This document shows, one piece after another, positions 17,415-35,681 of a DNA stretch of 36,699 nt (position 1 is its first letter; each line of letters starts with the position of its first letter). The notes beneath the pieces were generated by a model. It was not told the origin of the DNA. It did not search any database and saw nothing but the letters and a program-made list of their open reading frames with translations. Position numbers and translations under genes: made by a program. This stretch comes from Terriglobales bacterium (lineage in GTDB: Bacteria; Acidobacteriota; Terriglobia; Terriglobales; SCQP01): the NCBI GenBank assembly GCA_025450725.1, contig JANWLQ010000005.1:1-36699 (forward strand), given 5' to 3'.

Positions 17415-17466
17415 CGAAGTTGATTCACTTTCACATACCGCATGGCGCAGTCCGAAGCCGGCATTT

Positions 17467-18306
17467 TCACGCGCCGGCCTTTTGCTGGCGCGCGCGCAGT
17501 GGCACCCGCCAGGGCGCATCGCCCGACGCCCAGAGCTGACAAAGTGCGTCGTGATCGCGCTGCGTATCCATGCATTCCCAAAATCCCCGGTGCCGAAACA
17601 CATTCAGCTGCCCGTCCTCCGCCAAGCGGCGCAACGGAACGCGTTCCAGAACGCAGGCATCGTCAGCGATGACGTATTTCAGAAATTCCCGTCGAAAGAA
17701 AAAATAACCTCCATTGATCCACATGTCTTGAATGGCAGGTTTCTCGTGGAATGCAATCGCCTGGTCGCCATCGATCTGAAACTCGCCGAATCGGGACGGC
17801 GGGTTGACGCCGAGCACGGTTCCGATCTGAGGCCTCGTACAATGAAAATCCCATTCCCGGCCAAGATCCGCATCCGTTAAGCCGTCCCCATAGGTTACGC
17901 CGAAGTGACTGGCGGCGCCGAGATAGCGCTCCGCCGCGCGGCGGACGCGCGCACCCGTCATTGCCTTTTCGCCCGTGAAGGCCACCGTCACCCGCCAATC
18001 CAAGCGTTCGGGCTGCTCATGAAAGGTCACCGAATTCGACGCCAGTTCGATCGTCGCGTCGTGACGATGGGCATAAAATTTCAAAAAGTAATCTTTAATA
18101 TATTCGCTTTTGTACCCCGTACAGAGCACGAAATGCCGAAATCCATGAGTTGCATACGTGTGCATGATGTGGAGCAGAATCGGATCCGAGCCGATCGGGA
18201 CCATGGGCTTGGGGCAAAACTCCGTATGCTCTTTCAGGCGGGTACCCATGCCTCCGCAGAGAACGAAAATCGGCACTGATTTGGGATCGATAATTTCAGA
18301 AGTCAT
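17467..18306 (-). CDS. rfbF: Glucose-1-phosphate cytidylyltransferase
   Basis: VPIFVLCGGMGTRLKEHTEFCPKPMVPIGSDPILLHIMHTYATHG, TYGDGLTDADL, DMWINGGYFFFRREF. Confidence 0.95.
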   Translation of the reverse strand: MTSEIIDPKSVPIFVLCGGMGTRLKEHTEFCPKPMVPIGSDPILLHIMHTYATHGFRHFVLCTGYKSEYIKDYFLKFYAHRHDATIELASNSVTFHEQPERLDWRVTVAFTGEKAMTGARVRRAAERYLGAASHFGVTYGDGLTDADLGREWDFHCTRPQIGTVLGVNPPSRFGEFQIDGDQAIAFHEKPAIQDMWINGGYFFFRREFLKYVIADDACVLERVPLRRLAEDGQLNVFRHRGFWECMDTQRDHDALCQLWASGDAPWRVPLRARQQKAGA

Positions 18307-18326: not shown

Positions 18327-19415
18327 TCATGCCTTGGCGGTGACCGGCTTGCCCTCTCCTGCCAAACGGCTTTCGTATTGTTGCCGGTAGTAGTCCTGAA
18401 AACTGGTGTCGTGCGCCTTTTCGAGCCAAGCCGCGTTCCGTTGGTACCACTCGACAGTAGCGGCCATGCCTTCACTCAGCCGAATCCTGGGGCGCCATCC
18501 CAACTCCTGATGGGCTCGAGTGGAATCCAGGGAATAACGCATATCGTGACCGGGTCGATCGGCCACGCGCCGGATCAAGGTGGTGGACTTGCCCATGATG
18601 GATAACAATTGTTCTAGAAGATCGAGGTTGGCCACCTCGTCCGCGCCACCTAAATTGTAGACTCGGCCCGGCTCGCCGCGCTCCAGCGCGGCCACAATAC
18701 CGCGGCAGTGATCCTCTACGTGTATCCAATTGCGAACGTTTAGCCCGGTGCCGTAAAGCGGAATCGTGCGATCAGCGCTGGCGTTGGCGATCGCCAGCGG
18801 AATCAGCTTTTCGGGAAACTGATAAGGTCCGTAATTGTTGGAACCGCGGGTTATGATCACGGGCAGCCCGTGCGTTTTTCCTGCCGCGCGAGCTAACAGA
18901 TCGCCGCCTGCCTTGGAGGCGGCATAAGGCGAATTGGGCGCCATCGGCGAGTCTTCCCGAAAACTTCCCGTCGGCCCTAAGCTGCCATAAACCTCATCCG
19001 TGCTGACCTGCAAAAAACGCTCAACGCTGTGACGCCGGGCGGCATCCAGTAGTATTTGTGTCCCACCCACGTTGGTGTGAATGAATTGCGAGGCATCCCC
19101 GATGCTGCGATCAACGTGGCTTTCCGCCGCAAAATGAACGACCGCATGGGGCCGGAAACTTGCGAATGCAGTCTCAACGGCTTCCGCGTTCCCGATGTCG
19201 CCCAAGCTAAAGTGGTAGCGCGGGTTTGATTCGAATTCGGCCAGGTTCTCGCGGCGGCCGGCATACGTCAGACAGTCGAGGTTCAGGATGGCCGGACCTT
19301 GAGGATCGGCAAGTAACATTCGCACGAAGTTGGTGCCGATGAAGCCGCAACAACCTGTAACGAGCCAGCGCCGATTTCCGGTGTCGGGCGGGCGGGGGGT
19401 AGTGACTTGTACCAT
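18327..19415 (-). CDS. rfbB: dTDP-glucose 4,6-dehydratase
   Basis: LVTGCCGFIGTNFVRMLL, VVHFAAESHVDRSIGDASQFIHTNVGGTQILLDAAR, VSTDEVYGSLG, PYAASKAGGDLL, RGSNNYGPYQFPEKLIPL. Confidence 0.95.
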   Translation of the reverse strand: MVQVTTPRPPDTGNRRWLVTGCCGFIGTNFVRMLLADPQGPAILNLDCLTYAGRRENLAEFESNPRYHFSLGDIGNAEAVETAFASFRPHAVVHFAAESHVDRSIGDASQFIHTNVGGTQILLDAARRHSVERFLQVSTDEVYGSLGPTGSFREDSPMAPNSPYAASKAGGDLLARAAGKTHGLPVIITRGSNNYGPYQFPEKLIPLAIANASADRTIPLYGTGLNVRNWIHVEDHCRGIVAALERGEPGRVYNLGGADEVANLDLLEQLLSIMGKSTTLIRRVADRPGHDMRYSLDSTRAHQELGWRPRIRLSEGMAATVEWYQRNAAWLEKAHDTSFQDYYRQQYESRLAGEGKPVTAKA

Positions 19416-19519: not shown

Positions 19520-20272
19520 TTACCGCCCGGAGACAGCCGCCATCGTGTGCGATGCGTCGTGCACCATTGCCTCAACCAGTACAGAAACCCGGTGGAGTGA
19601 TTCGAACGTTCCGGCATCGCTCCACCATCCGTCAACCAGCGAGTGGTGAAGATGCTGTTCCGCAAGATAGAGATTATTAACGTCGGTGATCTCGAGCTCC
19701 TTGCGATTCGATGGCCGGCATCGCTCGATTTTTTCAAATACGCTCGCATCGTAGAAATAGCAGCCGGTCACGGCAAAGTGCGATGCCGGTTGCCGCGGTT
19801 TCTCCGCGATGTGAACGATCCGGCCATTTTCAATCGTGGGAACGCCAAAGCGGGTTGGGTCGGAGACTTCTTTGAGTAGCACACGAGCGCCGCCGCCTTG
19901 CTGGTCAAACTCACGCGCTGCCGAGCTGATTCCATTCTGAAAAATGTTATCCCCCAGCAGGACGGCAATGTCGTCGCTCCCAGCGAACGGCTGGGCCAGG
20001 CGAAGCGCGGCCGCAATGCCCCCTTCTCCACGCTGATATGCGTAACGCAATGTGCAGCCAAATTCCTCGCCGTTTTCCAACAAACGCAAAAAATCGCCGG
20101 CATTGTTCCCGCCCGTCACCAGGAGGATATCTCGAATTCCAGCATCCGCCAGAGTCTGAAGCGGAAAATACACCATGGGCCGGTCGTAAATCGGCAGAAG
20201 ATGTTTATTCGTAATCTTTGTTAGCGGCAGGAGCCTACTACCCAAGCCGCCGGCCAGAATGACGCCCTTCAT
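19520..20272 (-). CDS. rfbA: Glucose-1-phosphate thymidylyltransferase (short form)
   Basis: MKGVILAGGLGSRLLPLTKITNKHLLPIYDRPMVYFPLQTL, GEEFGCTLRYAYQRGEGGIAAALRLA, VLLGDNIFQ, VTGCYFYD, LEITDVN. Confidence 0.9.
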   Translation of the reverse strand: MKGVILAGGLGSRLLPLTKITNKHLLPIYDRPMVYFPLQTLADAGIRDILLVTGGNNAGDFLRLLENGEEFGCTLRYAYQRGEGGIAAALRLAQPFAGSDDIAVLLGDNIFQNGISSAAREFDQQGGGARVLLKEVSDPTRFGVPTIENGRIVHIAEKPRQPASHFAVTGCYFYDASVFEKIERCRPSNRKELEITDVNNLYLAEQHLHHSLVDGWWSDAGTFESLHRVSVLVEAMVHDASHTMAAVSGR

Positions 20273-20510
20273 ATTTGAACTCCTTGCCTGTTCCTTCCCT
20301 CAGGACTACCGCAATTCGGACGCGCGGGACAATGGATTATAGCATGGGGTCTGGACATTGTGGTGCACCGCGGCGGCCAGCCGGCGTCCTGCCGGCGGAA
20401 CGGTCTGGCCGCTGGTCCGCAGCGAAAAGCCAAGCCCGGCCGCGCGATGCCTGGCGCGGCGGTTACACAACGGTAACAGAACTTGCGCGGCCCCGATGGT
20501 AATATTGATC

Positions 20511-22340
20511 ATGCTACGATTTACTATGATCAGTGGGGTGATTCTCGCGATTGCGACTAACCCAGCATTACTCGCTCGGCTGGCTTGCCAGCATCTTTCA
20601 TTGATAACTACATCCGAATTCTCGACTTGGACCGCCAACGTGGTGACGCCGGTCACCGCTCCTGGTACATTCGCAATCACCATTGAGCCGGGGTTTATTG
20701 ACAGCACGGCCGGGCGTTCGGCACCCACGCTCACGGAAGGAGGCCAAGTGGCGGTTGATACCGGTGGTGCGGCAGAGGTCGTCACGGCAACCCGAGTCAC
20801 CTGCAGCATGAGTCCGGTCTCGCACTGCAGCGCGACCGCTACATTTCGCAATTCTCACCCCGGCAACGGCACGCCGGCCCACTCGGCGTCGGCAGGCTTA
20901 CAGGAGGCGATTGATTCCGCGATCGCGGCCGGTGGCGGCGGCGTCGAAATTACGCCTAATTATGGAGCCAGCAACGCAAGTCTCAATTCCGCCGTCGGGG
21001 CAGCGACGGTTTTCCTGGTGGACGACCGCGGTAGTGGCCCGGGCTTTTGGGTGTGGCAGGGCGGCCAATACCAGTGGTCTATTCCGAGCGCGGGGGGGCA
21101 ATTGCGCGCGAGCGCGCCGGCTATAACACCGGAATCAATCGAAGGAACGGTTTTCAGCGATCAGTTTGGTTCCGGCACACTGTCCGCTCAAGTAAGTCTC
21201 GCCTGCGCGTCTTTGAGTGGGGCACCAGGAATCGTGGTGGTGCCGGCGAGCGCGCCGGCTGGTTCACTGCCGGTATTGCCCGGGGGTTGCATAGTCCAAG
21301 ACGATCGCGGTAACACCGGCAATGGGGGCATTTTGTTCAGCCGTGAATTGCCCGGGAACGATGAACAATACGGATTTTCATTTGCCACCCAGAATCTGGC
21401 CTCCGACGGCCAATCGTCGGTTGCCCTCCTGGGAGAAGTGGCGCCAGGAGTGAGTGGTGCCAATGTAACTGGCGTGCGGGGCCAGGTTTTTTCGGCCGGT
21501 TCAAGCGGGGTTTACGGAATCAACTTCGGCAGCGGCGGATTCGGCGGCGTGGGCGTGCAGGGAGACGTGACCAACCTGCCGGGAAGCGTGGGCGTCAAGG
21601 GAACCGGCTGCCACAGTGGGGGCACGGAGGCGGCACCATGCATTGGCATTTTTGGATCAGTCGTCGGCAATCCCACCTACAACGGCAACATCGCCGTTTA
21701 TGCACAGAACGACAATGGCATTCCCCTTGCCGCGAATTTGACCGACACTGCGGGGTCCATCGATCCAACCGTCATTCGCGCCCAAAGCGCCGAGCCCACC
21801 AGCACAAATATGTCCATTCTCAATTCTTCGACCGGAGGCAAGAGGTGGGATTGGCTCTCCGCCGGGGCGGCGAATCATTGTTCCGTGGCAGCCGGCTCGA
21901 TGGCATTCTGGGATGCAAGCGACGATCGCTGCCCGGTGGTGATTGCTGCTTCAGCTGCAGGTCAGGAGTTAAGCGTAAGCAGCGCCGGCGTGAGTACGCC
22001 AGGCGCTCTCATATCTACCGTGCCACCCGGAACGCCACCACTCCAGGTGAGCAGTTCGACTCCAGTGCTGAACTTAACTTCGGCACCGGTCGCCTACACG
22101 CCTGCGGGTGTGCAGGCGCTCAATCTGCATCTCGTAAGCGGTACCTGCACGGCCGCGACCAATTGTTCGATCAGCTTTCAGGGGGCAGCCGCCTTCAGCA
22201 ATGCGAGCAGTTATGTTTGCAGCGCCAATGATGCGAGCAACGCGAATCCCGTCGCGGTTCATGCCGCTGACGGTGGACACGCCACACTTTCGGGCACCGC
22301 AGGCGATGTAATCAATTTCCTTTGTGTCGGGAATCCGTAG
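20511..22340 (+). CDS. Secreted hypothetical protein sharing an N-terminal module with the 6374..9595 product
   Basis: Signal-like N-terminus MLRFTMISGVILAIATNPALLA; SAGLQEAIDSAIAAGGGGVEITPNYG...VFLVDDRGSGPGFWVWQGGQYQW parallels the 1073-aa protein; Gly-rich middle (GSSGVYGINFGSGGFGGVGVQGDV). Confidence 0.7.
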   Translation: MLRFTMISGVILAIATNPALLARLACQHLSLITTSEFSTWTANVVTPVTAPGTFAITIEPGFIDSTAGRSAPTLTEGGQVAVDTGGAAEVVTATRVTCSMSPVSHCSATATFRNSHPGNGTPAHSASAGLQEAIDSAIAAGGGGVEITPNYGASNASLNSAVGAATVFLVDDRGSGPGFWVWQGGQYQWSIPSAGGQLRASAPAITPESIEGTVFSDQFGSGTLSAQVSLACASLSGAPGIVVVPASAPAGSLPVLPGGCIVQDDRGNTGNGGILFSRELPGNDEQYGFSFATQNLASDGQSSVALLGEVAPGVSGANVTGVRGQVFSAGSSGVYGINFGSGGFGGVGVQGDVTNLPGSVGVKGTGCHSGGTEAAPCIGIFGSVVGNPTYNGNIAVYAQNDNGIPLAANLTDTAGSIDPTVIRAQSAEPTSTNMSILNSSTGGKRWDWLSAGAANHCSVAAGSMAFWDASDDRCPVVIAASAAGQELSVSSAGVSTPGALISTVPPGTPPLQVSSSTPVLNLTSAPVAYTPAGVQALNLHLVSGTCTAATNCSISFQGAAAFSNASSYVCSANDASNANPVAVHAADGGHATLSGTAGDVINFLCVGNP

Positions 22341-22367: not shown

Positions 22368-23336
22368 CTAAACCTCTGGCGGCGAAGGATTGGCGTATAT
22401 GCTATCCCAATAAAAATCTTGAGCGCTCAGTTTTCTGATTAATCCGTGGTGCAAGTGCGCGCCGTTCTCACCAACTTTATAGCCGAGGTATTTCGCCGCC
22501 AGCACCAACAACCCATAAGGGAGCGCCCATGGCTGGCTTTTCCAAAGCTGGCCGAGCATAATGCGGGAATAGTCGCGGCCCCGGCTCTCGTCGGCGGCCG
22601 CCGCAAAGACGCGTTCGGCGCCCCATCGTCTTTCGTAACCGACATCGAAATAGCGCTTAAACTCCTGCTTGAGTCCATATTTATGCGAGTGAAAGACAAC
22701 GGCATCAGCGACGTAGGCAATCCGGCCACCACTCGCCAATAGGCGGACCGCCGCGTTCGCATCTTCCTGGGTGAGAGCCGGACGGAAGCCGCCGATGCGA
22801 TCCAAGGTGGAATTGAGCCAGGCGGCGCAGGAATTGGAGCAAAAGTAAAGATAGGCTCCATATTGGTCATGATCCTGGGCGGTGCGCACGTGACCGACGT
22901 CTGGATAATTAAATTGGCGTGGAAACGATTCCAAGAACCCGGCTCCGGGATGAGGAATTTGACGCGCGTACGCGACATCGGCTTCGCCGGACACAAGGGG
23001 GCGCAGCAGGCGGGTCAGCATGTCCGGGTGGGCTGGAATCGCGTCCGGAGTCATCATGACGACAATATCGGTACCGAGAAATTTCCGCGCCAGCTCACGG
23101 GTGGCGCCATGGTTGAAATGGGAGCGTTCGACGACCAGAGTTTCGGCACCCAAGCGCTGAGCCAGATCGACGGTGCCATCGCGGGAGCTGGAATTGACGA
23201 CGACCAGGCGGGGGCGTTCGGCAAAAGCTTGCAATGGCGGCAGCGAGCGTGGCAGCAGCTGGGCGGCGTTGTGAGTGATGACCGCTATTCCGACCGAGGG
23301 AGACGGCTGGAGCATGGAAGAGTTGGCAAGGGTCAT
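22368..23336 (-). CDS. Glycosyltransferase family 2 (rhamnosyltransferase-like)
   Basis: VGIAVITHNAAQLLPRSLPPLQ, VVNSSSRDGTVDLAQRLGAETLVVERSHFNHGATRELARK, MMTPDAIP. Confidence 0.88.
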   Translation of the reverse strand: MTLANSSMLQPSPSVGIAVITHNAAQLLPRSLPPLQAFAERPRLVVVNSSSRDGTVDLAQRLGAETLVVERSHFNHGATRELARKFLGTDIVVMMTPDAIPAHPDMLTRLLRPLVSGEADVAYARQIPHPGAGFLESFPRQFNYPDVGHVRTAQDHDQYGAYLYFCSNSCAAWLNSTLDRIGGFRPALTQEDANAAVRLLASGGRIAYVADAVVFHSHKYGLKQEFKRYFDVGYERRWGAERVFAAAADESRGRDYSRIMLGQLWKSQPWALPYGLLVLAAKYLGYKVGENGAHLHHGLIRKLSAQDFYWDSIYANPSPPEV

Positions 23337-23343
23337 AAGAGAT

Positions 23344-24717
23344 CTAGCCGCGAGCCGGGGCGGCATTGGCGACCGGTCCGCGAAGTTTTTTATGCCGGAC
23401 GGAAGTCAGATCGGCCTCGGTGACGACTATTTTGGCGGGGGCCTTGAAATTTGCCAACTCTTGCAGGCAGGCCTTGCGTAAGCGCAGCTTCAAGGCAGCC
23501 GCGTCTTCGGGCGCCAAGAGGCGCACGGTGGCGACGACGATGTGGCCCAGCAGAGGATGAGATTCGCCGTACACGGCGGCATCCCGGATATTGTCCTGCC
23601 GAAGGAGAACCTCTTCGACTTCGGCGGGGTAGACTTTCTGGCCTCCGACATTGATAAGGTCGGAGGTGCGACCCAGGATGCGAAAGTATTCACCGTCGAC
23701 TTCGACTGAATCATGGGTGTTGAACCAGCCGTCCTGGTCGAATTCCGAGGGGGCATTGAGATAACCGACCATGGCGTATTGCGATCGGATCCAAAGGACG
23801 CCATCCACCACCTTGGTGGCAAAGCCCTCACCGCCGATGCGGACCCAGGTGGAGCCGTCGGCGCGTGAGCGCGAGTGTAGGACCCCCACCTCGGACAGGC
23901 CGTAGGTCTGCTGCAGTTCAGCCCAGGGAAATTCGGCACGAACCCGGTCGAGGGTGGCCTGGGGCATGACTTCGGTGCCGTAGCTAATCCGGTTCAAACT
24001 TTTGAGAGTGTAGTTTTTATAAACCCCGGAGACCATCAGCATGGTCAAGAACGAGGGCGTGGTAGGCAGCAAAGTCACGTGGTGACGATCAATGGCGGTG
24101 CAGACTGCATCAACGCTGCGCTCTCTCACCGTGACCACGGTACCGAGGCTGGCGGTGATGGCCATCAAGGTATTGATCCCTCCAAAGTGGTCGAGCATGA
24201 GAAAGGGAATGGCAACGACAGGCTGGCGCGGCTTGATAAATTTTCCCGCCACCCGGGCGAGGTCGTGCAGGATGCCTTTCGGCTGTCCGGTGGAACCGGA
24301 GCTAAATAGAATCAGGCCGGGAGCCTGCCCGGCGCGAAATGGGGCGAGAATCGGCTCGGAGGTGAGCGGGGCGACGGGGTGGGGAGCGAGGGAAAAATCG
24401 GCGGCGGTCGGGTCAAATTCCGCCCGCCACTCGCAGCCGGAGATACGCAAGGCGGCTTCGTGCTCGATGACCCCCTGGCGCGCGAGGGGGATGGCCAGAC
24501 AGCGGCGGCGGGCGAGTGCCATGAGGAGGCAGAAAACCGCTGGCGAATAATCGCCGACGGCGGCGACGCGATCGCCGGGGGCGACGTGTGCGGCTTCCAG
24601 GCGCTTTTCGCAGGCGAGGATGCGCGCGAGGACGTCGGAGTAGCTAACTTCCGTATCTTCGTGGATAAAGGCGGTACGGTCGCCGCCTTCCCGGAGCCGT
24701 TCGAAGAACCAATCCAA
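23344..24717 (-). CDS. AMP-dependent acyl-CoA/acyl-ACP synthetase (ANL superfamily)
   Basis: LILFSSGSTGQPKGILHD (P-loop), LQQTYGLSEVG, GWFNTHDSVEVDGEYFRILGRTSDLINVGGQKVYPAEVEEVL. Confidence 0.92.
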   Translation of the reverse strand: MDWFFERLREGGDRTAFIHEDTEVSYSDVLARILACEKRLEAAHVAPGDRVAAVGDYSPAVFCLLMALARRRCLAIPLARQGVIEHEAALRISGCEWRAEFDPTAADFSLAPHPVAPLTSEPILAPFRAGQAPGLILFSSGSTGQPKGILHDLARVAGKFIKPRQPVVAIPFLMLDHFGGINTLMAITASLGTVVTVRERSVDAVCTAIDRHHVTLLPTTPSFLTMLMVSGVYKNYTLKSLNRISYGTEVMPQATLDRVRAEFPWAELQQTYGLSEVGVLHSRSRADGSTWVRIGGEGFATKVVDGVLWIRSQYAMVGYLNAPSEFDQDGWFNTHDSVEVDGEYFRILGRTSDLINVGGQKVYPAEVEEVLLRQDNIRDAAVYGESHPLLGHIVVATVRLLAPEDAAALKLRLRKACLQELANFKAPAKIVVTEADLTSVRHKKLRGPVANAAPARG

Positions 24718-24718
24718 A

Positions 24719-24964
24719 TTAGACCTCTTTCAGTTGTTCGCTCACGGTCAAGCGCAGGAGTGGCAGCGAGGACAGATTGGCTGCCTCCTCATCGGGGATG
24801 GAAATGTGAAACTCCTCTTCGAGGGCGAGAATGAGGTTCATGTGGCGCAGCGAATCCCAGCTGCTCACGGTATCCATGCTCGCCTCGGGCGGGATGTTAC
24901 CCGGGGGTATGCCCAGAACGGCGCCGAGCACACGTTTGATGCGTTCTTCTTGGTTATCCGGCAT
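24719..24964 (-). CDS. Acyl carrier protein (ACP1)
   Basis: 81 aa; phosphopantetheine site motif SSWDSLRHMNLILALEEEFHISIPDEEA. Confidence 0.9.
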   Translation of the reverse strand: MPDNQEERIKRVLGAVLGIPPGNIPPEASMDTVSSWDSLRHMNLILALEEEFHISIPDEEAANLSSLPLLRLTVSEQLKEV

Positions 24965-26765
24965 GTTGAAACTTCGCCTTCGCGGGGTGATATTGACATT
25001 CGATCCAAGGGGCCTCGGGCGGACGCCAGCTGTCGAGGGAGGCCTGAAACCAGCACGGTTCGCCCTCGGCCGGCAAAGGATCAAGGCCGAGCTGTTGATA
25101 ATAATCGGCGACCATGGCGTTCTTCGCCGAGGGCAGGTAGGCGGCGCGAATGGTTGCGACACCGTGCCGCCTACATTCGGCGATGATGGCCGGCCAAATC
25201 GCCCACTCCACTCCGCGTCCGATGACGCGGCAACTCATGAGGAACGCCTCAATTTCCGCGATTTCGGGTAGATAGCGAACGACGACAACGCCGGTGAGTC
25301 CAGCCGAGCCGAAACGGTCCTCGACGTCAACGGAGAAGACGTCGGCGCACGGATCATCCATCGTGGCAGCCAGCTCGGATTGGGTATAGCGGCGGGTGGT
25401 TAAATTAAACTGATTGGATTTCTGGGTGAGTTCGCTGATGCGCGGCAGGCGAGCGCGGTCACTCCGGATGACGGCAGCGCGGAGGCCTAGCGAACGCAGA
25501 TACTCTTCGCGTGATCCGGCCGCGGATTCCAGCTCGCGGGCGGCGGCGCGTTGGCGATACTCGTGGGTCTTGCTGGCGCTTTCGGCAGCGACGCCGCCGC
25601 CCAGCATCAACTCCCGGACTTGCTGGAGCAGCGCGGGGTATTCCGCAAGCTGCGCCGGGACCTGAAGCGTCTTGACGGCGGGAAGCTGGGAGCGGACGGC
25701 CTCACACTCGAAGGGGGAATCGTCAATAAAAATCAGACTGTCGAGGCCGACATTCAACTCGGCGGCGATGGCCCGGAGATTGTCGGGCTTTTCATCCCAA
25801 TTGACCTTTTTCAGGGTCAGGCAATCATCGCGCAGCACCATGGCGGGATGGGAGCGCAGCATTTCATCCACGTCGGCAGGATTGTTCTTGCTGCACAGGC
25901 AGAGCAGCATACCCGCCCGTTCGAGCGCCCGGTATTCCTGTTGAGCTCGCCAGTAGATGCTGCCGGGAGGCTCATGGGGATCCAGTCGTACCCCCGTCAG
26001 GAGATCCTCACCGATCACCCCGCCCCACAGAGTGTTGTCGCAATCCAGCACCAAAACTTTGTAGTAATAAGTGCCGAAGCCGCGGGAGACGACGCGCAGT
26101 TTGTGAGCCCATCGATCGAGCAGCGCGGGGCGGAATGGAGCTTTGGCTCTCTGATAGAAACGCCAATCGAATGCTGCGGGAGCGCCGACGCACGCCAATA
26201 CCTCTGCACTGTCCAAGAGCTGAACTTGCGGATACGATGCCGCCTCCTCGCGCAGCACTTGATTAAAGCGACGGACCGCGCGGCCGACCGGGTCATCCCC
26301 ATCCGCGCCCGGTGCGGGGCTCATGCGGTGATACGTTGCCACCCATACTTGACGAAAACTTCGGCTCGATTCGAATACCAGCCGCCATCGTGAGCGCAGC
26401 TCGGCTTCCCGCTCCGCTAATTCCAGCTCTTCCATCGAGGCCACTTGGGCCTCGAAGGCGGGCTGAATATTGTCAAAAAGCGGCAGACAAAACACGTAGG
26501 CGACGCCGGCGCGGCGGAAGCGATCGAGATCGCCAAGGGTATTGTCATAGTCACTTTCGCTGACCCGCAGTCGGACGCCGCAGAGAGCGGCGTGACGCCG
26601 AAGATAAATGCTGAGCGGGCCGAGTGTCACGTTGGAACTGAGGCCAAACGTTATCTCCTGGGCATTGGGCGATTGTTGATCCCAGTCGGCGAGGGCTTGC
26701 ATAACTTCGCCTAATGGCGAGGCCTGATCAGCTAGAATTTCCGACGCGGAGCGATTCATTTTCAT
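24954..26765 (-). CDS. FkbH-like HAD-IIIC family protein (N-terminal extension, HAD core, C-terminal GNAT-like domain)
   Basis: KVLVLDCDNTLWGGVIGEDLLTGVRL, CSKNNPADVDEMLRSHPAMVLR, DSLIFIDDSPFECEAVRS; C-terminal SCRVIGRGVEWAI. Confidence 0.92.
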   Translation of the reverse strand: MKMNRSASEILADQASPLGEVMQALADWDQQSPNAQEITFGLSSNVTLGPLSIYLRRHAALCGVRLRVSESDYDNTLGDLDRFRRAGVAYVFCLPLFDNIQPAFEAQVASMEELELAEREAELRSRWRLVFESSRSFRQVWVATYHRMSPAPGADGDDPVGRAVRRFNQVLREEAASYPQVQLLDSAEVLACVGAPAAFDWRFYQRAKAPFRPALLDRWAHKLRVVSRGFGTYYYKVLVLDCDNTLWGGVIGEDLLTGVRLDPHEPPGSIYWRAQQEYRALERAGMLLCLCSKNNPADVDEMLRSHPAMVLRDDCLTLKKVNWDEKPDNLRAIAAELNVGLDSLIFIDDSPFECEAVRSQLPAVKTLQVPAQLAEYPALLQQVRELMLGGGVAAESASKTHEYRQRAAARELESAAGSREEYLRSLGLRAAVIRSDRARLPRISELTQKSNQFNLTTRRYTQSELAATMDDPCADVFSVDVEDRFGSAGLTGVVVVRYLPEIAEIEAFLMSCRVIGRGVEWAIWPAIIAECRRHGVATIRAAYLPSAKNAMVADYYQQLGLDPLPAEGEPCWFQASLDSWRPPEAPWIECQYHPAKAKFQHAG

Positions 26766-27955
26766 AACATCAGGCCCCCGCCATTGATGCGCAGGGTTTG
26801 ACCAGTCACGTAGGCGGCTTCGTCAGAGACCAGATAAGCCACCGCCGACGCAATGTCGGCTGGGGCAGCCAGGCGGCGCAGAGGCAACTGGCGCGCAGTG
26901 ATCATTTGCAGCTTTTCGGGAATGTCGCCGATCATGGCAGTCGCGGTCATGCCAGGAGAAACGGAATTGACGGTGATCCCATGCGGGCCTAGCTCTGCGG
27001 CCAAACCGCGGGCCAGCATCGTAAGCGCCGCTTTGGCCATGGCGTAGGCACTCCAACCCGGAGTCGGCGCCGCATCGGCGACCTGGGAACTGATATTCAC
27101 AATCCGCCCCCAGCCGCGAGCGATCATATCGGGAATGCATTGTTGAGCCAGCATCAATGACGCGCGCACTTGGACATCAAGATGGCGCTGGCAGTCGGCC
27201 CAGGCAATGCCTGACAGCGGATGGGGCCGAATCGGAGGCGAGGCATTATTTACAAGGACATCGACCCGGCCCAAGGCTGCCTTCACCCCGTGGTATAGCG
27301 AGATGACTTCCTCTTCTCGGCTCAGATCGGCGGACACGACGCAACTCCGACCGCCCGCAGCCTGAATTTCGGCCGCCAATTGGTCGGCCTGTTCCTGATT
27401 GCGGTGACAATGGATGGCGATGGCCAGCCCGGCCCGGCTGATCCGCCGGCAGATAGCGGAGCCGATACCGCCGGCGGCGCCGGTAACCAGCGCGACGCGC
27501 GGTTCGGGCGAGGCGGGCGCCTCCTGCGGGGCGGCCACGCGCAGCATCTTTACCCTGCCCTCGCCCGCCACAACCACGTCCCCGTGCTGGTTGGTGATGC
27601 TGGTTTCCATATCCAACAGGCGTTCGCGCTCGTGCTTGCGCAGCACCGTGCAGCGAATGGTGAGTTCGTCTCCCAGGCGCACGGGCTTGCGAAACTCAAG
27701 GTTCTGGGAAAGCCAGAGGGCGCCGGGACCGGGCAGCTTGGTGCCGATGACGGTCGAGATGAAGGAGACGCCCAACATCCCGTGCACCACCACATCCTGG
27801 AAGGCGGTCTGCTGGGCGAAGTCGCGATCGAGATGCAGGGGGTTGACGTCGCCACTCAGATCGGCGAATTTTCGAACATCCGCCGATGTGATGCGGCGTA
27901 CGAGAGACTCGGAGTCACCGACGCTGATGGACTCGAATTGGGCAGGGACGGGCAA
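26762..27955 (-). CDS. MaoC-like dehydratase fused to 3-oxoacyl-ACP reductase (SDR)
   Basis: MaoC: DVNPLHLDRDFAQQTAFQDVVVHGML. SDR: ALVTGAAGGIGSAICRR, NNASPP, YAMAKAALTMLARGLAAELGPHGITVNSVSPG. Confidence 0.92.
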   Translation of the reverse strand: MPVPAQFESISVGDSESLVRRITSADVRKFADLSGDVNPLHLDRDFAQQTAFQDVVVHGMLGVSFISTVIGTKLPGPGALWLSQNLEFRKPVRLGDELTIRCTVLRKHERERLLDMETSITNQHGDVVVAGEGRVKMLRVAAPQEAPASPEPRVALVTGAAGGIGSAICRRISRAGLAIAIHCHRNQEQADQLAAEIQAAGGRSCVVSADLSREEEVISLYHGVKAALGRVDVLVNNASPPIRPHPLSGIAWADCQRHLDVQVRASLMLAQQCIPDMIARGWGRIVNISSQVADAAPTPGWSAYAMAKAALTMLARGLAAELGPHGITVNSVSPGMTATAMIGDIPEKLQMITARQLPLRRLAAPADIASAVAYLVSDEAAYVTGQTLRINGGGLML

Positions 27956-27958
27956 GTG

Positions 27959-28963
27959 TTAGGGGAGCGGCGGGCATTGCACCCAATCCCAAACGCTCGC
28001 CGCAAAATTAAAGCCGGCGCCGACCGCGGCCAGGACGATGCGATCGCCGGCGCGCAGGCGGCCCTGGGCGACGGCTTGGGAGAGGGCAATCGGGACCGAG
28101 GCGGACCCAGTATTGCCGATGTCCTGGACATTGGTAAAAGTCTGTTCCATGCCGAAGCCCATCTTTTTCATTAGATATTCAATCAGACGCAGATTGGCTT
28201 GATGAAACAAAAGAAAGTCGATCTCCCCTGGCGCCACTCCGCTCTTGGCGCACGCCTCGCGAATCACGCCGGGGAGGTGAGTAATCGCCTGTTTCCAGGT
28301 GGCCAGTCCATGCATTTCCATGAGATCCAGCTGGCGATCCGGCGCGCGGCCGTGGAAGGGGAAGCTGGAGCCCCCGCCGCGCATGCGGACGGACTCGAAA
28401 TTGGTGCTATCGGTGTGGAAGGCGGAGGCGCGGATGCCGCCGGGGGCGGGGGTGCGGGACAGGACGGCCGCGCCGGCGCCGTCGCCCACAAACATAGCCG
28501 TTTCGACGTCGGTGCCGTCGATATAGCGGGTACAAAACTCGACCCCGACGATGAGGGCGTGATTCACCGCCGGGTCGGCGCGCATGCGGTCGGCGGCCAG
28601 GGTCAGGCCGGTAACAAAGCCACAGCAATTCGCCTGAACATCGAAGATCTGAGCTCGGTTTGCTCCGAGGTCGCGGTGAAGCGCGGCGGACAACGGCGGG
28701 AAGATGTAATCGCCGGAAAAAGTACACGCAATAATCAGATCGAGGGCGCGGGCGGGGATGCCGGCCATGGCGAGAGCATCGGCGGAAGCACGACGGGCAA
28801 AGTCGCTGGCCCGGTCGCCGGGCGCGGCCTTACGGCGCTGGCGAATGCCGCTCTTTTCCAGAATCCATTCCGGCGAGACGGACAGAGACAAACATAACTC
28901 CTCATTCGTCTCGACTCGCTCGGGAAGGCAGTGTCCCACCCCTTGGATCGCAATTCCGCTCAT
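27959..28963 (-). CDS. 3-oxoacyl-ACP synthase III (KAS III/FabH-like)
   Basis: GIAIQGVGHCLPERVETNEEL, FDVQANCCGFVTGL (active Cys), LLFHQANLRLIEYL (His), QDIGNTGSASVPIAL (Asn). Confidence 0.93.
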   Translation of the reverse strand: MSGIAIQGVGHCLPERVETNEELCLSLSVSPEWILEKSGIRQRRKAAPGDRASDFARRASADALAMAGIPARALDLIIACTFSGDYIFPPLSAALHRDLGANRAQIFDVQANCCGFVTGLTLAADRMRADPAVNHALIVGVEFCTRYIDGTDVETAMFVGDGAGAAVLSRTPAPGGIRASAFHTDSTNFESVRMRGGGSSFPFHGRAPDRQLDLMEMHGLATWKQAITHLPGVIREACAKSGVAPGEIDFLLFHQANLRLIEYLMKKMGFGMEQTFTNVQDIGNTGSASVPIALSQAVAQGRLRAGDRIVLAAVGAGFNFAASVWDWVQCPPLP

Positions 28964-29658
28964 GGCCGCGCGGCTGCCGGCTCTGGAACTGCCTCCAGAA
29001 ACTGCCGCAAGGGGCCATTGTCGATCGCTACCTGGCCGGCATCGCCGGGCCACGCATGACCGGGGAAGATTGTCCGCCCGGGTACCAGTTCGCTCGACAA
29101 CTGACGCAGGGTGGCGCGCAACTGTTCGGGATTTTCGCCGGGGAGCCGGGAGAGGGCGAGGCCGCGGGTAAAGAGGGTGTCGCCGGTGAACCAGAATGAA
29201 TCCGTTTCGAATATGCAACTGCCGGCGGTATGGCCCGGCGAATGGCGCCAAGCGAAGCGCCGGGCGCCGGAAGCGAAGCTGCCGCGCTCGCCTTGAAGCA
29301 GTGTGGGTTGCGGCAATTGAATGCGCTGCGGCAGTTTGAATACCATGAGCATGAAATTGGCTTTTTGCAGGAGGGGCGCATCGTCGGCATGCAGCATGAC
29401 TTCGATGCCAAAGCGCTGTTGGAAATAGGCCGCACTGCCGAGATGGTCGAAGTGCGCGTGGGTACAGAGAATCAACGAGGGCACGAGTCCCGAGGCAGTG
29501 AGAAAAGCTTCAATTCCCTCGCGGTCCAAACCCGGGTCGACCATGACACATTTGGAGCCGGGATCCCGCGGGTCGGGGATGAGGAACGTATTGGAACCGA
29601 AGACCGGGCAGCGCCACCAGGATACGCCGGTGGTTTCCTTCCAATACAGGGCGTCCAT
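28960..29658 (-). CDS. MBL-fold metallo-hydrolase
   Basis: LILCTHAHFDHLGSAAYF (HxHxDH), HSPGHTAGSCIFE, FTGDTLFTRG, FPGHAWPGD. Confidence 0.9.
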   Translation of the reverse strand: MDALYWKETTGVSWWRCPVFGSNTFLIPDPRDPGSKCVMVDPGLDREGIEAFLTASGLVPSLILCTHAHFDHLGSAAYFQQRFGIEVMLHADDAPLLQKANFMLMVFKLPQRIQLPQPTLLQGERGSFASGARRFAWRHSPGHTAGSCIFETDSFWFTGDTLFTRGLALSRLPGENPEQLRATLRQLSSELVPGRTIFPGHAWPGDAGQVAIDNGPLRQFLEAVPEPAAARP

Positions 29659-29659
29659 T

Positions 29660-30370
29660 TTAGTGGAGGCCTCCCAAAACGACGGTCTGGGCGGTGATGT
29701 AGGAGCTGTTTGGGGAGGCGAAAAAATCAATGACGTTCATAATATCCTGGGGTTGCGCGATGCGCGGAATCGGCATGCCGGCCAGGATGGCATCGATTTT
29801 TTGCCGCGGCAGCTGTGCCAGCATGTCGGTTTCGATGGCGGTGATCCCCAGGGAATTGCAAGTGATTCCCCAGCCAGCGACTTCCCGGGCCAACACGTTG
29901 TTGAAGGTTTGGAGGCCGGCCTTGGTGGCGGCATAAATCGAATCGCCGGCGGGTTCCAGGCATACCGCCATCGAGCTAATCTGGATGATGCGGCCCCACC
30001 GACGCTTGCGCATGAGCTTGGCGGCCTCGCGGCTCAACAGGCACGCGGCTTGCAGATTGACGGTAAACATGTCCTGCATCGCGCGGGTGGACATCAGCAC
30101 GGCGTACTGGGAGGTCAGCACGGCGGCGTTATTAATCAAGATATCGAGGCCGCGAGCGGCGCCAGCCAGCTCCGCACAGGCGGCCGGAATGGCTTCGGGA
30201 GAGCCGAGGTCCACCGTCAAGTGATGGTAGTCGGGATGGGCCAGCGACGACTCGCCGCGAGCCAAGCCCCAGACGGCGGCACCCTGCGGGAGCAAGTGTT
30301 CAACGATGTGGCGGCCCACCCCGCGGCTGCTGCCGGTCACGAGGGCGGTCTTGCCGGAATAAATACCCAT
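29660..30370 (-). CDS. SDR family oxidoreductase (FabG-like 3-oxoacyl-ACP reductase)
   Basis: ALVTGSSRGVGRHIVEHLL, NNAAVL, IYAATKAGLQTFNNVLAREVAGWGITCNSLG. Confidence 0.9.
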   Translation of the reverse strand: MGIYSGKTALVTGSSRGVGRHIVEHLLPQGAAVWGLARGESSLAHPDYHHLTVDLGSPEAIPAACAELAGAARGLDILINNAAVLTSQYAVLMSTRAMQDMFTVNLQAACLLSREAAKLMRKRRWGRIIQISSMAVCLEPAGDSIYAATKAGLQTFNNVLAREVAGWGITCNSLGITAIETDMLAQLPRQKIDAILAGMPIPRIAQPQDIMNVIDFFASPNSSYITAQTVVLGGLH

Positions 30371-30373
30371 GGG

Positions 30374-30679
30374 CTACTTCCCGGCTGATTGCAGCCGCGA
30401 GGAGATATAAGCCGTCAAGGAAGCCGGCGTGCGATAGAGCGAGTCCGACTGGGAAATGGCGTGGTCATCGGTCAGACTGAGAGGAAAGCCCAAGGCCTCG
30501 GCGAGCGAGGTTTCGACATCCACGATCACCGAAACCAGTTGCAGGGAGTCGAGCACGGCGTTGGCGCCGAAAAGCGGCATGTCCGGCGAAACCTCCAACT
30601 TCTGTCCGGCATCGAGCTCCTGGTTCAGATTTTCTACTGCCGCCAACGCGAGCTGTAAGATTCGATCATCGCTCAACAT
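30374..30679 (-). CDS. Acyl carrier protein-like (ACP2)
   Basis: 101 aa; PLFGANAVLDSLQLVSVIVDVETSLAEALGFPLSLTDD with DSL phosphopantetheine site. Confidence 0.8.
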   Translation of the reverse strand: MLSDDRILQLALAAVENLNQELDAGQKLEVSPDMPLFGANAVLDSLQLVSVIVDVETSLAEALGFPLSLTDDHAISQSDSLYRTPASLTAYISSRLQSAGK

Positions 30680-30681
30680 AA

Positions 30682-31311
30682 TTAAGAGTTCAATTGTTCC
30701 TTCGGGGGCACGGCGGGCGCCGACGCGGCCGGGCCAGCGGCTTGCACCAGAGACTGCATGCGCGGCAAGGCGCAATTACGATACTCCTCGGCGAGCATAC
30801 CCAAAACGACGGCGTCCTGAAGCCTGCCTTCAAGATTATAATGGCAGCGCAGGCGCCCCTCCTCACGCATGCCCAGAAAGAGTTGCCATTTGAGCATGAG
30901 GCGGTTCTCGCCGGCGATGGTACCCCACACCCGAACGAGCTGCAGCGCGTTAAAGGCGAAATCGTAAATCAGCATCATCGCTTCCACTGCGGCGGGGATG
31001 CCGCGCACCGCCTCCGGTTCGCCAATTAGAAATCTGCCAGTCTCGGCATGGCTATTGGTCAGGTCGATGCCCAGCAGCGAAACCATGCCGACGGCTCGAC
31101 CATCGGTGCGTTCGATGATGAAATTAAATTCCGACTGGGGGAGGGTGCGGATCCATTCCCGCTGGGCCGCGACGGTGGGTGCGCCCCGGTTCAAGAAGCG
31201 GGCTCGCTGGGAGTGGCGCCAACTCCAGGTAAGTTCGGCGTCGTCCGGCCGCAGGGGGCGCAGGCGGACGAAAGTTCCGTCCAGGGTGATGGAGGAGGGA
31301 AGGGGTTGCAT
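30682..31311 (-). CDS. GNAT family N-acyltransferase
   Basis: VRLRPLRPDDAELTWSWRHS, WIRTLPQSEFNFIIERTDGRAVGMVSLLGID, VWGTIAGENRLMLKWQLFLGMREEGRLR. Confidence 0.82.
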   Translation of the reverse strand: MQPLPSSITLDGTFVRLRPLRPDDAELTWSWRHSQRARFLNRGAPTVAAQREWIRTLPQSEFNFIIERTDGRAVGMVSLLGIDLTNSHAETGRFLIGEPEAVRGIPAAVEAMMLIYDFAFNALQLVRVWGTIAGENRLMLKWQLFLGMREEGRLRCHYNLEGRLQDAVVLGMLAEEYRNCALPRMQSLVQAAGPAASAPAVPPKEQLNS

Positions 31312-32966: not shown

Positions 32967-33982
32967 GTGGGGGGCAAGGTCTCCGGACCGGGCGGAGCGG
33001 TGCTGACCACGGCGGGCGGGCGGCGGTCGGCGTGCCGGCCATCCGGGAACTTGAGGGACAAATCATAGAGGAACCGATTCGTCCGTTCCAGCGCGACGAC
33101 GAAGGCCATGACCGGATAGGCGCGCCATTTCGGGGCTCCGCGGAAGCGGGCGAGGAATCCGTGCATCCGGAGGTGGCGTCCGGCGAAGCCGCCAAAGGCG
33201 GGGGCGTTGCGGGCCGCGGTCACAAACAACGCCTCGATAATTTTCCATCGCGACCGAAAAATGGAGTTGGCTCCATGGACGCGGTAGTTGGCGACATAGG
33301 CGTCGATGAAGTCCAGCCGTTGACTGGAGGCAAGGCGCAAGTAAATGTCCCAGTCCTCGGCGGCCAAATCCTCGCTGTAGCCGCCCAGGCTGGCAAAGGC
33401 TTCGCGCCGCAATAACATCACCGGACCCGGAATGCCCCAGCGGAAAACCAGCGTGGCGGACAGGCGCTGAGGATGCAGGAGATCCGACTTGCGAATTTTC
33501 TTTTGGCGGTACATGCCTTCGATGCCGCTATCCCAAAGACGGCGGCCGTAGGCATCAATGACACGGCAGTCGGCGAAGGTGGCCCACAACTCCGGATTTT
33601 CTTCCAGGTGACGGACGCGCACGTGAAGTCCCTGGGGGAGCAGCTCATCGTCGGCGGCGATGGGTGCGTAGTAGCGGCCGTGAGCCCAGGCGATGGCCTG
33701 ATTGAGGTTCTTGCCGATGCCGCGATTCTGAGGGCAGCGGTGGAAGGTAACAGAGAGTTTCAAATGGGCATGAGCCTGCAACCAGTGCTCGACGCGAAGA
33801 ACGGAGCCGTCGCGGGAACAGTCATCGATGATGATCCATTCGAGCGCCGGGTATGCGGTCGCCAAGATGCTGTCGAGGCAGCGCTCGACGTACTGCTCCT
33901 GGTTGAACACCAACACCACCACGGTCACCAAGGGCCAAGCCTCGGCGGCGGGCGGCGTCCCGAAACTGGCGTGATCAGGCAT
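32963..33982 (-). CDS. Glycosyltransferase family 2
   Basis: VTVVVLVFNQEQYVERCLDSILATAYPALEWIIIDDCSRDGSVLRV, APIAADDELLPQG, AAEDWDIYLRLA. Confidence 0.9.
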   Translation of the reverse strand: MPDHASFGTPPAAEAWPLVTVVVLVFNQEQYVERCLDSILATAYPALEWIIIDDCSRDGSVLRVEHWLQAHAHLKLSVTFHRCPQNRGIGKNLNQAIAWAHGRYYAPIAADDELLPQGLHVRVRHLEENPELWATFADCRVIDAYGRRLWDSGIEGMYRQKKIRKSDLLHPQRLSATLVFRWGIPGPVMLLRREAFASLGGYSEDLAAEDWDIYLRLASSQRLDFIDAYVANYRVHGANSIFRSRWKIIEALFVTAARNAPAFGGFAGRHLRMHGFLARFRGAPKWRAYPVMAFVVALERTNRFLYDLSLKFPDGRHADRRPPAVVSTAPPGPETLPPT

Positions 33983-35159
33983 GGTGCGGTACAGCGGCTT
34001 TGGCCAAAGCGCGGCAAAAACCTTGGGAATGGGCGGCGTGACCGGCGCAGAACTCAGCCACGGCGTCGGCCACACGGCGAAGCTCGTCCGGGCTCAGGTG
34101 GGGACCCATGGGCAGGCTCACAACGGTTTCCGCCAACTGCTGAGCGCGGGGGAAATCCAGGGGGTTCAAGCCGGCGTAGGCGGGGGTACGATGCGGCGGG
34201 AGCGGGTAATGCACCAGGGTATCGATGCCGCGCTGTTGCAGCCAATGGCGAAGGCAATCGCGGTGAGGGTGGCAAACGACATACAGGTGCCAGACGGGAT
34301 CGGTCGCCGGGGAGGGAGTGGGACAATCAAGTTCGGCCAAGCCGGTCAAAGCTGACGCATAGGCAACCGCGCGCTTCCGGCGGCGCTGATTCCATTCCGG
34401 CAAGCAGGCCAGGCGGACGCGCAGAAATGCGGCTTGCAGTTCTCCCAGGCGGGAATTAAATCCGAGTTCGAGATGTTCGTATTTGCGCACGCCGCCGTAG
34501 TTGCGCAGGGCACGGAGCCGTTCGGCCAGTCGAGCGTCATTGGTGGTTACGGCGCCGCCGTCGCCAAAAGCGCCCAGGTTTTTGCCGGGATAAAAACTGA
34601 ATGCGGCCAAGCCTCCCCATCCGCCCACGATGCGGCCAGCGACGCGAGCGCCGTGCGCCTGGGCGGCATCTTCCAGGACGTGCAGGCCTCGCCGGGCGGC
34701 GAAGTGTTGGATGGCCGGCATATCGGCGGGCTCGCCATAGAGGTGCACGGGAATGATGGCCCGCGTGCGCGGGGTGCAAGCGGCCTCGAGGCGCTCGGGG
34801 TCCAGATTAAATCCGCGCGGAGACACGTCCACCGGCACCGGCCGAGCGCCCACCTGGCTGACGGCCAGGAAGGTGGCAATGAAAGTATGGGCCGGCACCA
34901 GCACCTCATCACCGGGGCCGATGTCGAGCACCCGCAAGGACAGTTGGAGCGCGTCGAGTCCACTGGCGACGCCGATGCAGTGGCGCACGTCGCAGGCGGC
35001 GGCAAATTCGGTTTCGAATTGTTCCAGCTCCGGTCCGAGGAGAAAGCGTCCCGAATCCATGACCCGCGCGTAGGCGGCGTCCAAGTCGGGCCGCAGTTCG
35101 CGAATCATGGAGGCGAAATTCAGGAATGGGACGGGCGTGGCGGCGGGGCTAGGGCTCAT
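33975..35159 (-). CDS. DegT/DnrJ/EryC1/StrS aminotransferase (FdtB/QdtB-like)
   Basis: VPFLNFASMIRELRPDLDAAYARVMDSGRFLLGPELEQFE, VLEDAAQAHGARVAG, FSFYPGKNLGAFGDGGAV (PLP Lys), FNSRLGELQAAFLRV. Confidence 0.93.
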   Translation of the reverse strand: MSPSPAATPVPFLNFASMIRELRPDLDAAYARVMDSGRFLLGPELEQFETEFAAACDVRHCIGVASGLDALQLSLRVLDIGPGDEVLVPAHTFIATFLAVSQVGARPVPVDVSPRGFNLDPERLEAACTPRTRAIIPVHLYGEPADMPAIQHFAARRGLHVLEDAAQAHGARVAGRIVGGWGGLAAFSFYPGKNLGAFGDGGAVTTNDARLAERLRALRNYGGVRKYEHLELGFNSRLGELQAAFLRVRLACLPEWNQRRRKRAVAYASALTGLAELDCPTPSPATDPVWHLYVVCHPHRDCLRHWLQQRGIDTLVHYPLPPHRTPAYAGLNPLDFPRAQQLAETVVSLPMGPHLSPDELRRVADAVAEFCAGHAAHSQGFCRALAKAAVPHHA

Positions 35160-35638
35160 AGGGAGTTCGGCTGCAGGCCGCGGCAAGTAGAAAGAAATTC
35201 GGCGTAATCACGAATATAGTCCGACTCCTCGTAGACTCTCGAAGCGAGGACCATGCAGGTGGAGCCCGAGGAGAAGTTGTCCAGCTCCCGCCAAATCATG
35301 GGGCACATGTACAGGCCGACATAGGACCGGTTGAGGTGGACGGTGCGGCGGTTGCGGCCGTCATCGAGATGGACATCAAAGCTGCCGGCAATCGCAATCA
35401 GGAGTTGTTGCAGATGGCGGTGACCGTGACCGGCGCGTTGGGCGCCGCCGGGGACATCGTAGAGATAGTAGATGCGGGCAATCGAGAAGGGAACGTTGCG
35501 ATTGCCTTCAATAAACGTGAGATTCCCGCGCGCGTCCTGAATCCGGGGCAGATCCACGAGCTGGCATTCATCCACGTGCCCGAGGCGCAGTTGGGGATGG
35601 GGCTCAGGGGCGGATTGGGTGGCAATGGAGGCAGTCAT
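35156..35638 (-). CDS. FdtA/QdtA-like dTDP-4-keto-6-deoxyhexose 3,4-ketoisomerase (WxcM-like cupin)
   Basis: DARGNLTFIEGNRNVPFSIARIYYLYDVPGGAQRAGHGHRHLQQLLIAIAGSFDVHLDDG...GLYMCPMIWRELDNFSSGSTCMVLASRVYEESDYIRDYAEF. Confidence 0.9.
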   Translation of the reverse strand: MTASIATQSAPEPHPQLRLGHVDECQLVDLPRIQDARGNLTFIEGNRNVPFSIARIYYLYDVPGGAQRAGHGHRHLQQLLIAIAGSFDVHLDDGRNRRTVHLNRSYVGLYMCPMIWRELDNFSSGSTCMVLASRVYEESDYIRDYAEFLSTCRGLQPNSL

Positions 35639-35681
35639 GGTCGGGAGGCGGCGCTCGGGCCTGGGCGCGGGGAAAGCAAAA

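Follow-up and report, generated by a model that had tools for sequence, protein, structure and literature searches.

The window (the whole stretch of DNA analysed, 36,699 nucleotides from a Terriglobales bacterium) holds, within a polysaccharide locus, a conserved unit of nine genes in the order GNAT-ACP2-FabG-MBL-KASIII-(MaoC-SDR)-FkbH-ACP1-ANL. On balance, we favour the view that this cassette encodes a sugar-acylation pathway that spreads horizontally and consists of two modules and a transferase, in which a unit derived from FkbH would be elongated and then N-linked to a 3-amino sugar. FkbH, ACP1 and the MaoC-SDR fusion would form module A, and KASIII, ACP2, FabG1, MBL and ANL module B.

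The first-pass annotation described ten overlapping or nearly abutting genes on one strand between positions 22368 and 31311, and all ten ORFs were confirmed there on the minus strand, without internal stops. From GNAT through ACP2, FabG, MBL, KASIII, MaoC-SDR, FkbH, ACP1 and ANL to GT2, the successive spacings, computed from the likeliest start codons (minus denotes overlap), are +2, +3, +1, -4, +3, -4, -11, +1 and -23 nt; the longest-ORF starts were shifted inward for KASIII (ATG 28963), ACP1 (24964), ACP2 (30679) and MBL (29658). The GNAT-type N-acyltransferase (30682-31311; PF13302) is followed by ACP2 (30374-30679), a 101 aa protein with an LDSL motif that would serve the elongation module as its carrier; it matched none of the Pfam or NCBIfam models, and its orthologues in the equivalent slot are 34-52% identical. 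Next come FabG1, a stand-alone, FabG-like SDR ketoreductase (29660-30370; PF00106/PF13561; orthologues 51-62%), a glyoxalase II-like MBL-fold hydrolase with invariant metal ligands, proposed to be a thioesterase (28960-29658; PF00753, Lactamase_B), the FabH-like condensing enzyme KASIII (27959-28963; PF08541/PF08545, ACP_syn_III N + C), and a MaoC dehydratase fused to a FabG-type SDR (26762-27955; PF01575 + PF13561). The unit is completed by an FkbH-family protein, the proposed glyceryl-ACP1 synthase (24954-26765; TIGR01686), its partner ACP1, of 81 aa with a WDSL motif (24719-24964; PF00550, PP-binding), and ANL, an AMP-forming acyl ligase of 457 aa (23344-24717; PF00501 + PF13193), the orthologues of which are 56-62% identical in complete cassettes and 39-43% in the Bacteroidota. 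The tenth gene, the GT2 glycosyltransferase GT2b (22368-23366; PF00535, Glycos_transf_2), lacks a homologue next to the cassettes of relatives and is therefore excluded from the unit as an ordinary polysaccharide-locus gene.

The catalytic motifs that had been read from the window are intact, and their residues are conserved across relatives. The Cys-His-Asn triad of KASIII is complete in all cassettes, the MaoC motif D-x-N-(P)-x-H and the SDR Ser-Tyr-Lys residues are retained, and both ACPs, which represent two distinct families, keep the DSL serine (ACP2 as aligned with the ACP2s of the other cassettes). The metal motif of the MBL protein, THxHxDH/PGH/GD/PGH, is likewise conserved. FkbH scores 260 bits against TIGR01686, where the curated cutoff is 146.65, and comprises an N-terminal domain, a HAD domain and a C-terminal GNAT-like fold; comparison of its predicted model gave matches to 3slr and to GNAT folds. 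Both its HAD motif D-x-D-x-T (D241-C-D243-N-T) and an S-C-R motif, the cysteine of which is C512, are conserved. The cysteine of the HAD motif (D-C-D) was considered as the glyceryl-carrying residue and dropped, since the FkbH of a tetronate-type operon among the comparison loci (L023) has D-L-D and the S-C-R cysteine is common to both.

Genes assigned to the pathway of the acceptor sugar lie on the minus strand of the same window. An FdtB-type DegT aminotransferase for a 3-amino sugar (33975-35186; PF01041) and an FdtA/QdtA-type 3,4-ketoisomerase (35156-35749; PF05523), the best PDB matches of which are FdtA-type proteins, are accompanied by RmlA, a glucose-1-phosphate thymidylyltransferase supplying dTDP-glucose (19520-20272; best match TIGR01207, under the curated cutoff), and by the dTDP-glucose 4,6-dehydratase RmlB (18327-19415; TIGR01181, over the cutoff).

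The cassette is found well beyond this contig. FkbH loci in genome contigs were recovered with an alignment as query (a single FkbH sequence gave no match), and the identical nine-gene order is present in Modestobacter (L030) and in a Burkholderiales bacterium (L032). A Phenylobacterium locus (L029) keeps the order without MBL, two Bacteroidota loci (L035 and L036) are rearranged, L035 being devoid of the MaoC-SDR fusion, and a Halobacteriovoraceae locus (L031) lies on a truncated contig; hence, neither MBL nor MaoC-SDR seems to be strictly required. As the nine genes recur in identical order in other phyla, the arrangement is not due to chance, and the outcome named in the first-pass annotation as fatal to its proposal, genes not co-conserved elsewhere, is not what was observed. 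That proposal, a dedicated acyl-ACP pathway feeding sugar acylation and tied to fdtA/fdtB, gains further from the presence of FdtA in five of the seven other cassette loci versus one of the 73 other FkbH loci (p = 5e-6; these loci, chosen by an FkbH search, are not phylogenetically independent), and an FdtB-type gene accompanies the cassette in L029, L030, L032 and L036. Pairwise identities of GNAT, KASIII, MaoC-SDR, FkbH and ANL correlate across loci (r = 0.90-0.97), which fits the expectation for genes travelling as one unit. Furthermore, a search for the cassette KASIII across the order (298 genomes) and the phylum (396 genomes) gave only FabH-like matches of at most 40% identity; the cassette therefore looks acquired, and sequence comparison makes horizontal transfer likely. 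When the concatenated cassette was searched against plasmids, only partial analogues were retrieved and no complete copy.

Gene neighbourhoods also indicate that the MaoC-SDR fusion most likely belongs with FkbH and ACP1 and acts on the FkbH product. ACP1, which overlaps the end of FkbH by 11 nt, adjoins it in other loci with or without the remaining cassette genes, while the combination of MaoC-SDR, FkbH and ACP1, to which a SAM methyltransferase is often added, is spread over several bacterial phyla and at least one archaeal contig. The fusion lies beside FkbH in 20 of the 80 loci, and no credible match to KASIII or ANL was found in 12 of these 20. Because the fusion travels with FkbH-ACP1 in these KASIII-less loci, it would act on what FkbH provides, and its earlier assignment as the dehydration and reduction half of a KASIII cycle finds no support here. 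FkbH and ANL had both been put forward as possible loaders; this is refined in that FkbH pairs with ACP1, while ANL, within the fusion-bearing loci, is confined to those that also have KASIII. The suggestion of a glyceryl unit is strengthened by the same pairing and by the occurrence of an fkbH-domain gene in the glyceroyl-Pse locus of C. jejuni.

The 12 loci likewise weigh against a simpler scheme, which we regard as rather improbable, whereby KASIII, FabG1 and MaoC-SDR perform a single KASIII-primed FAS cycle on ACP2/ACP1, so that the sugar would be N-acylated with a 3-hydroxyacyl or 2-enoyl group, for instance 3-hydroxybutyryl or crotonyl, FkbH being separate or a loader only. All FAS-type activities but an enoyl reductase are indeed present and adjacent, 3-hydroxybutyryl amides of Fuc3N and Qui3N are well known, and the substrate of FdhC is 3-hydroxybutanoyl-CoA. 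However, a second ketoreductase, FabG1, is already available for the KASIII cycle, and nine genes would be excessive for a 3-hydroxybutyryl group, for which a transferase and a CoA thioester suffice.

For the favoured two-module pathway, we infer the following reactions, order of use and product. FkbH would take 1,3-bisphosphoglycerate, with removal of phosphate, and load the glyceryl unit on ACP1; the MaoC domain would remove water from this unit at C3, forming the enol of pyruvyl, and reduction by the fused SDR would probably give lactyl-ACP1. KASIII may then condense the module A unit with malonyl-ACP2, a two-carbon extension, and FabG1 may reduce the 3-keto group to leave a 3,4-dihydroxypentanoyl-type chain. 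Release of this chain and its renewed activation, as a thioester of CoA (or ACP), are tentatively ascribed to MBL and ANL; with this thioester, GNAT would acylate dTDP-Fuc3N or dTDP-Qui3N, the presumed product of RmlAB-FdtA-FdtB, at the 3-amino group before Wzx/Wzy-type polysaccharide assembly. Sequence comparison of FdtA did not separate Fuc3N from Qui3N. The best PDB match of a GNAT orthologue profile is FdhC (E 1.4e-21); as a single sequence, the window GNAT matched SpeG-type proteins first and resembles FdhC less than it does spermidine acetyltransferases, and a fold search was unspecific, neither favouring a sugar acyltransferase nor identifying the acceptor. Among the genes of the window that were tested, it is the only N-acyltransferase found. 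A SAM methyltransferase lies near FkbH in every other long-contig cassette; the window has no homologue of it, and a search of the organism's own genome gave generic matches only. The product may therefore differ here, or the pathway may be incomplete.

It is also conceivable, though doubtful, that two separate acyl groups are made, one sugar receiving the module A unit (glyceryl, lactyl or related) directly, while module B builds, on ACP2, a group destined for another position; the modules would then be simply clustered. Module A is indeed found by itself in glycan loci, among them nonulosonic-acid loci, the two ACPs are of different families, ANL could load an acid of its own, and C. jejuni has a simple glyceroyl-type amide; against this, the modules are interleaved in an order conserved in phylogenetically distant hosts, and the cassette has one obvious N-acyltransferase. 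A small secondary-metabolite cluster (tetronate or methoxymalonyl-like), present in the polysaccharide locus by chance, is very unlikely: FkbH, an ACP and a FabH-like enzyme do make up the tetronate core set, as in L023, but the KASIII of L023 lacks the His of the triad and is only 23% identical to the window KASIII, Agg4/Agg5-like proteins, hydroxymalonyl dehydrogenases, PKS and NRPS are all absent among the cassette genes, and in other phyla the cassette shows tight linkage to FdtA/FdtB and GNAT.

More tentatively, MaoC-SDR, FkbH and ACP1 (often with the SAM methyltransferase) might constitute a free-standing converter of 1,3-bisphosphoglycerate to a lactyl-type or methylated acyl-ACP for surface sugars; in the window cassette, this unit would then serve as the primer for a single KASIII elongation step that leads to a new dihydroxyacyl sugar amide. 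Many acyl groups of bacterial surface sugars are without an assigned biosynthesis; through FkbH, the cassette would connect a glycolytic intermediate with the decoration of sugars, and it offers a portable gene signature. It is also carried by the named strains Modestobacter sp. VKM Ac-2985 and Rubrivivax pictus W35, in which the glycan could be solved directly. If FkbH, dehydratase and reductase do yield lactyl-ACP outside PKSs, they would make a compact loader that acyl chemistry could use.

Such a conversion has a counterpart in the loading module of BryA (bryostatin), where FkbH with DH/KR gives D-lactyl. In both cases FkbH, a dehydratase, a ketoreductase and an ACP would act on one glyceryl unit; BryA is integrated in a PKS, whereas the cassette proteins are stand-alone, with MaoC and SDR fused. 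The methoxymalonyl-ACP operon differs in that the two dehydrogenases and the O-methyltransferase that accompany its FkbH and ACP are absent among the cassette genes. In the tetronate glycerate-utilisation operon (FkbH, ACP, FabH-like, Agg4 and Agg5), FkbH and the ACP make glyceryl-ACP (PMC7489565, PMC4979870). The cassette shares with it FkbH, a stand-alone ACP and a KASIII-fold enzyme; it differs in its classical KASIII triad and its linkage to sugar genes, and neither Agg4/Agg5 partners nor an E2-like acyltransferase were found in it.

Among glycan loci, the C. jejuni flagellin locus contains the fkbH-domain gene cj1302 and Cj1295, and its known product, di-O-methylglyceroyl-pseudaminic acid, bears a glyceric-acid amide (PMC7099621, PMC3068675). 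The acceptor there is a nonulosonic acid, and the likeness is that of a gene in a locus, no role of cj1302 in the glyceroyl group being demonstrated in these reports. The flagellin glycosylation islands of Enterobacteriaceae (PMC4875605), Aeromonas (PMC7874193) and Azospirillum (p3 island, L027) resemble the cassette in placing ACP, FabG and ANL beside sugar genes, with a KASIII in Azospirillum as well. They differ in their pse and flagellin genes (no pse, maf or flagellin genes were found among the window genes tested) and in the LuxC/LuxE of the enterobacterial and Aeromonas islands, and an FkbH module is not described for them. A parallel in layout is the R-group locus wfpC-wfpG of the F. 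psychrophilum O-polysaccharide, which encodes an ACP, KAS, KR and acyltransferase for 3,5-dihydroxyhexanoyl-Qui2NAc4N (PMC6519341). In the text consulted, FkbH, MaoC-SDR, MBL and ANL are not named for the locus, its transferase is PglD-like (GNAT in the cassette) and its acceptor is a UDP-4-amino sugar (a dTDP-3-amino sugar in the cassette). Each of the two polysaccharide loci has a dedicated ACP, KAS, ketoreductase and acyltransferase and a proposed polyhydroxy acyl amide on an amino-deoxysugar; the window cassette has its dedicated ACP, KAS and KR beside amino-sugar genes, together with an acyltransferase. Dedicated mini-FAS pathways for the acylation of sugars are known, and the proposed FkbH-primed version would be a new one.

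The first-pass annotation had placed ten same-strand ORFs at 22368-31311, and this was borne out: the order given was correct, all ten are uninterrupted and, with the likeliest starts assumed, the spacing between them ranges from -23 to +3 nt. The proposed gene classes also agree with Pfam and NCBIfam, ACP2 excepted; this protein is without a match to any model of either collection, and its identity rests on its orthologues. The surrounding region is a Wzx/Wzy-type polysaccharide locus, since genes for Wzx, a GT2 glycosyltransferase, FdtB, FdtA and a sugar-phosphate transferase lie upstream of the cassette, while RmlA, RmlB and a CDP-sugar set lie downstream of it, beyond an opposite-strand ORF. 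The locus holds genes for a dTDP-3-amino-3,6-dideoxyhexose. The opposite-strand ORF (660 aa, 20358-22340, plus strand) gave no match in Pfam or PHROGs. A second, CDP-linked deoxysugar is represented at 14712-18306 by a glucose-1-phosphate cytidylyltransferase, a CDP-glucose 4,6-dehydratase, an RmlC-like epimerase and another epimerase, and an IS1595-type transposase (11193-11906) lies at the edge of the locus.

An alignment scan with FkbH yielded 80 loci, with which all cassette proteins were then compared by tblastn. The full order GNAT-ACP2-FabG1-MBL-KASIII-MaoC-SDR-FkbH-ACP1-ANL is retained in Modestobacter (L030) and in Burkholderiales C2 (L032), and Phenylobacterium (L029) has the same order without MBL. 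A Halobacteriovoraceae contig (L031) carries the FabG-to-ANL portion, and in two Bacteroidota contigs (L035 and L036) the GNAT gene is placed after ANL, the former being also without the MaoC-SDR fusion. In Rubrivivax pictus (L033), KASIII to ACP1 are found together, with MBL, FabG and ANL distant and on the other strand. The pairwise identities of five proteins, GNAT, KASIII, MaoC-SDR, FkbH and ANL, are correlated with one another (r = 0.90-0.97). Furthermore, FdtA occurs in five of the seven other cassette loci as opposed to one of the 73 other FkbH loci (p = 5e-6). The tenth ORF, GT2b, has no counterpart adjoining the cassette in the other loci, and a search for KASIII in the window's own order and phylum returned nothing beyond FabH-like proteins of at most 40% identity.

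All other long-contig cassettes possess a SAM methyltransferase with the FkbH module (L029:6106-7029, L030:4523-5434, L032:4460-5395, L033:6770-7699, L034:7897-8826, L035:8393-9379 and L036:7637-8566). This gene is absent from the window and was not found elsewhere in the genome of the organism, an assembly of 230 contigs that is 75% complete. In Rubrivivax pictus, FkbH-ACP1 is adjoined by a DUF4910/DUF2172 gene (L033:12017-13507, minus strand), which we take to be of the Cj1295 family; in Campylobacter jejuni, likewise, Cj1295 is found in one locus with an fkbH gene.

Of the 80 loci, 20 have the MaoC-SDR fusion adjoining FkbH. For 12 of these 20, KASIII and ANL were not credibly matched (best E 7); these are L034, L037, L038, L040, L042, L044, L045, L048, L052, L053, L060 and L066, with L037 and L042 being short contigs. 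Because the fusion accompanies FkbH, and usually ACP1, in these 12 loci, its substrate is most probably the FkbH product. By analogy, a glyceryl thioester may be dehydrated at C3 to an enol-pyruvyl unit, which would then be reduced to a lactyl group; the loading module of bryostatin biosynthesis provides a precedent for such glyceryl-to-lactyl chemistry. When the HAD motif of the window's FkbH (24954-26765) was compared across the 80 loci, D-C-D in place of D-L-D was found in 17 of the 20 fusion-linked proteins versus nine of the 60 others (p = 2e-8, kinship being ignored). NeuB/NeuA genes occur in several of the 12 loci, and L034 has an aminotransferase and a GNAT of its own. Trios of MaoC-SDR, FkbH and ACP1 lie near NeuB/NeuA in L034, L038, L045 and L070, Prochlorococcus included, which suggests acylated nonulosonic acids.

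The Cys-His-Asn triad of the cassette KASIII is intact, whereas the KASIII of a tetronate-type operon (L023) is missing its His; since the triad is complete, the cassette enzyme is expected to carry out a normal Claisen condensation with malonyl-ACP. The L023 operon, on a Pseudalkalibacillus plasmid (11624-24359), runs KASIII-FkbH-ACP-E2-like acyltransferase. FabG1 represents a second ketoreductase of the cassette, and the MBL protein is glyoxalase II-like with every metal ligand present. CoA thioesters are the normal substrates of GNAT enzymes, and it is for this reason that we propose that MBL acts as a thioesterase releasing the acid, which ANL would then re-activate. An Azospirillum island has an alpha/beta hydrolase adjoining ACP-ANL-SDR-KASIII. 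Among solved structures, FdhC is the best match for the GNAT orthologue profile (E 1.4e-21); it was singled out neither by the single sequence nor by the predicted fold. For the exact acyl group made by the cassette we rely on inference; what is said here of the genes themselves was measured.

Sets of FAS-type genes devoted to sugar acylation have been described in Flavobacterium psychrophilum (PMC6519341) and in flagellin islands (PMC4875605, PMC7874193). In C. jejuni, an fkbH-domain gene is part of the locus responsible for di-O-methylglyceroyl-pseudaminic acid (PMC7099621, PMC3068675), and tetronates are made by FkbH-ACP-FabH sets (PMC7489565, PMC4979870). As identities for the cassette, both a methoxymalonyl operon and a tetronate operon failed their defining tests. 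Given this outcome, and given that the cassette unites the features of FAS-type sugar-acylation genes, an FkbH within a glycan locus and an FkbH-ACP-FabH set, it would appear, as classed from its genes, to represent a further, new variant among the sugar-acylation cassettes.
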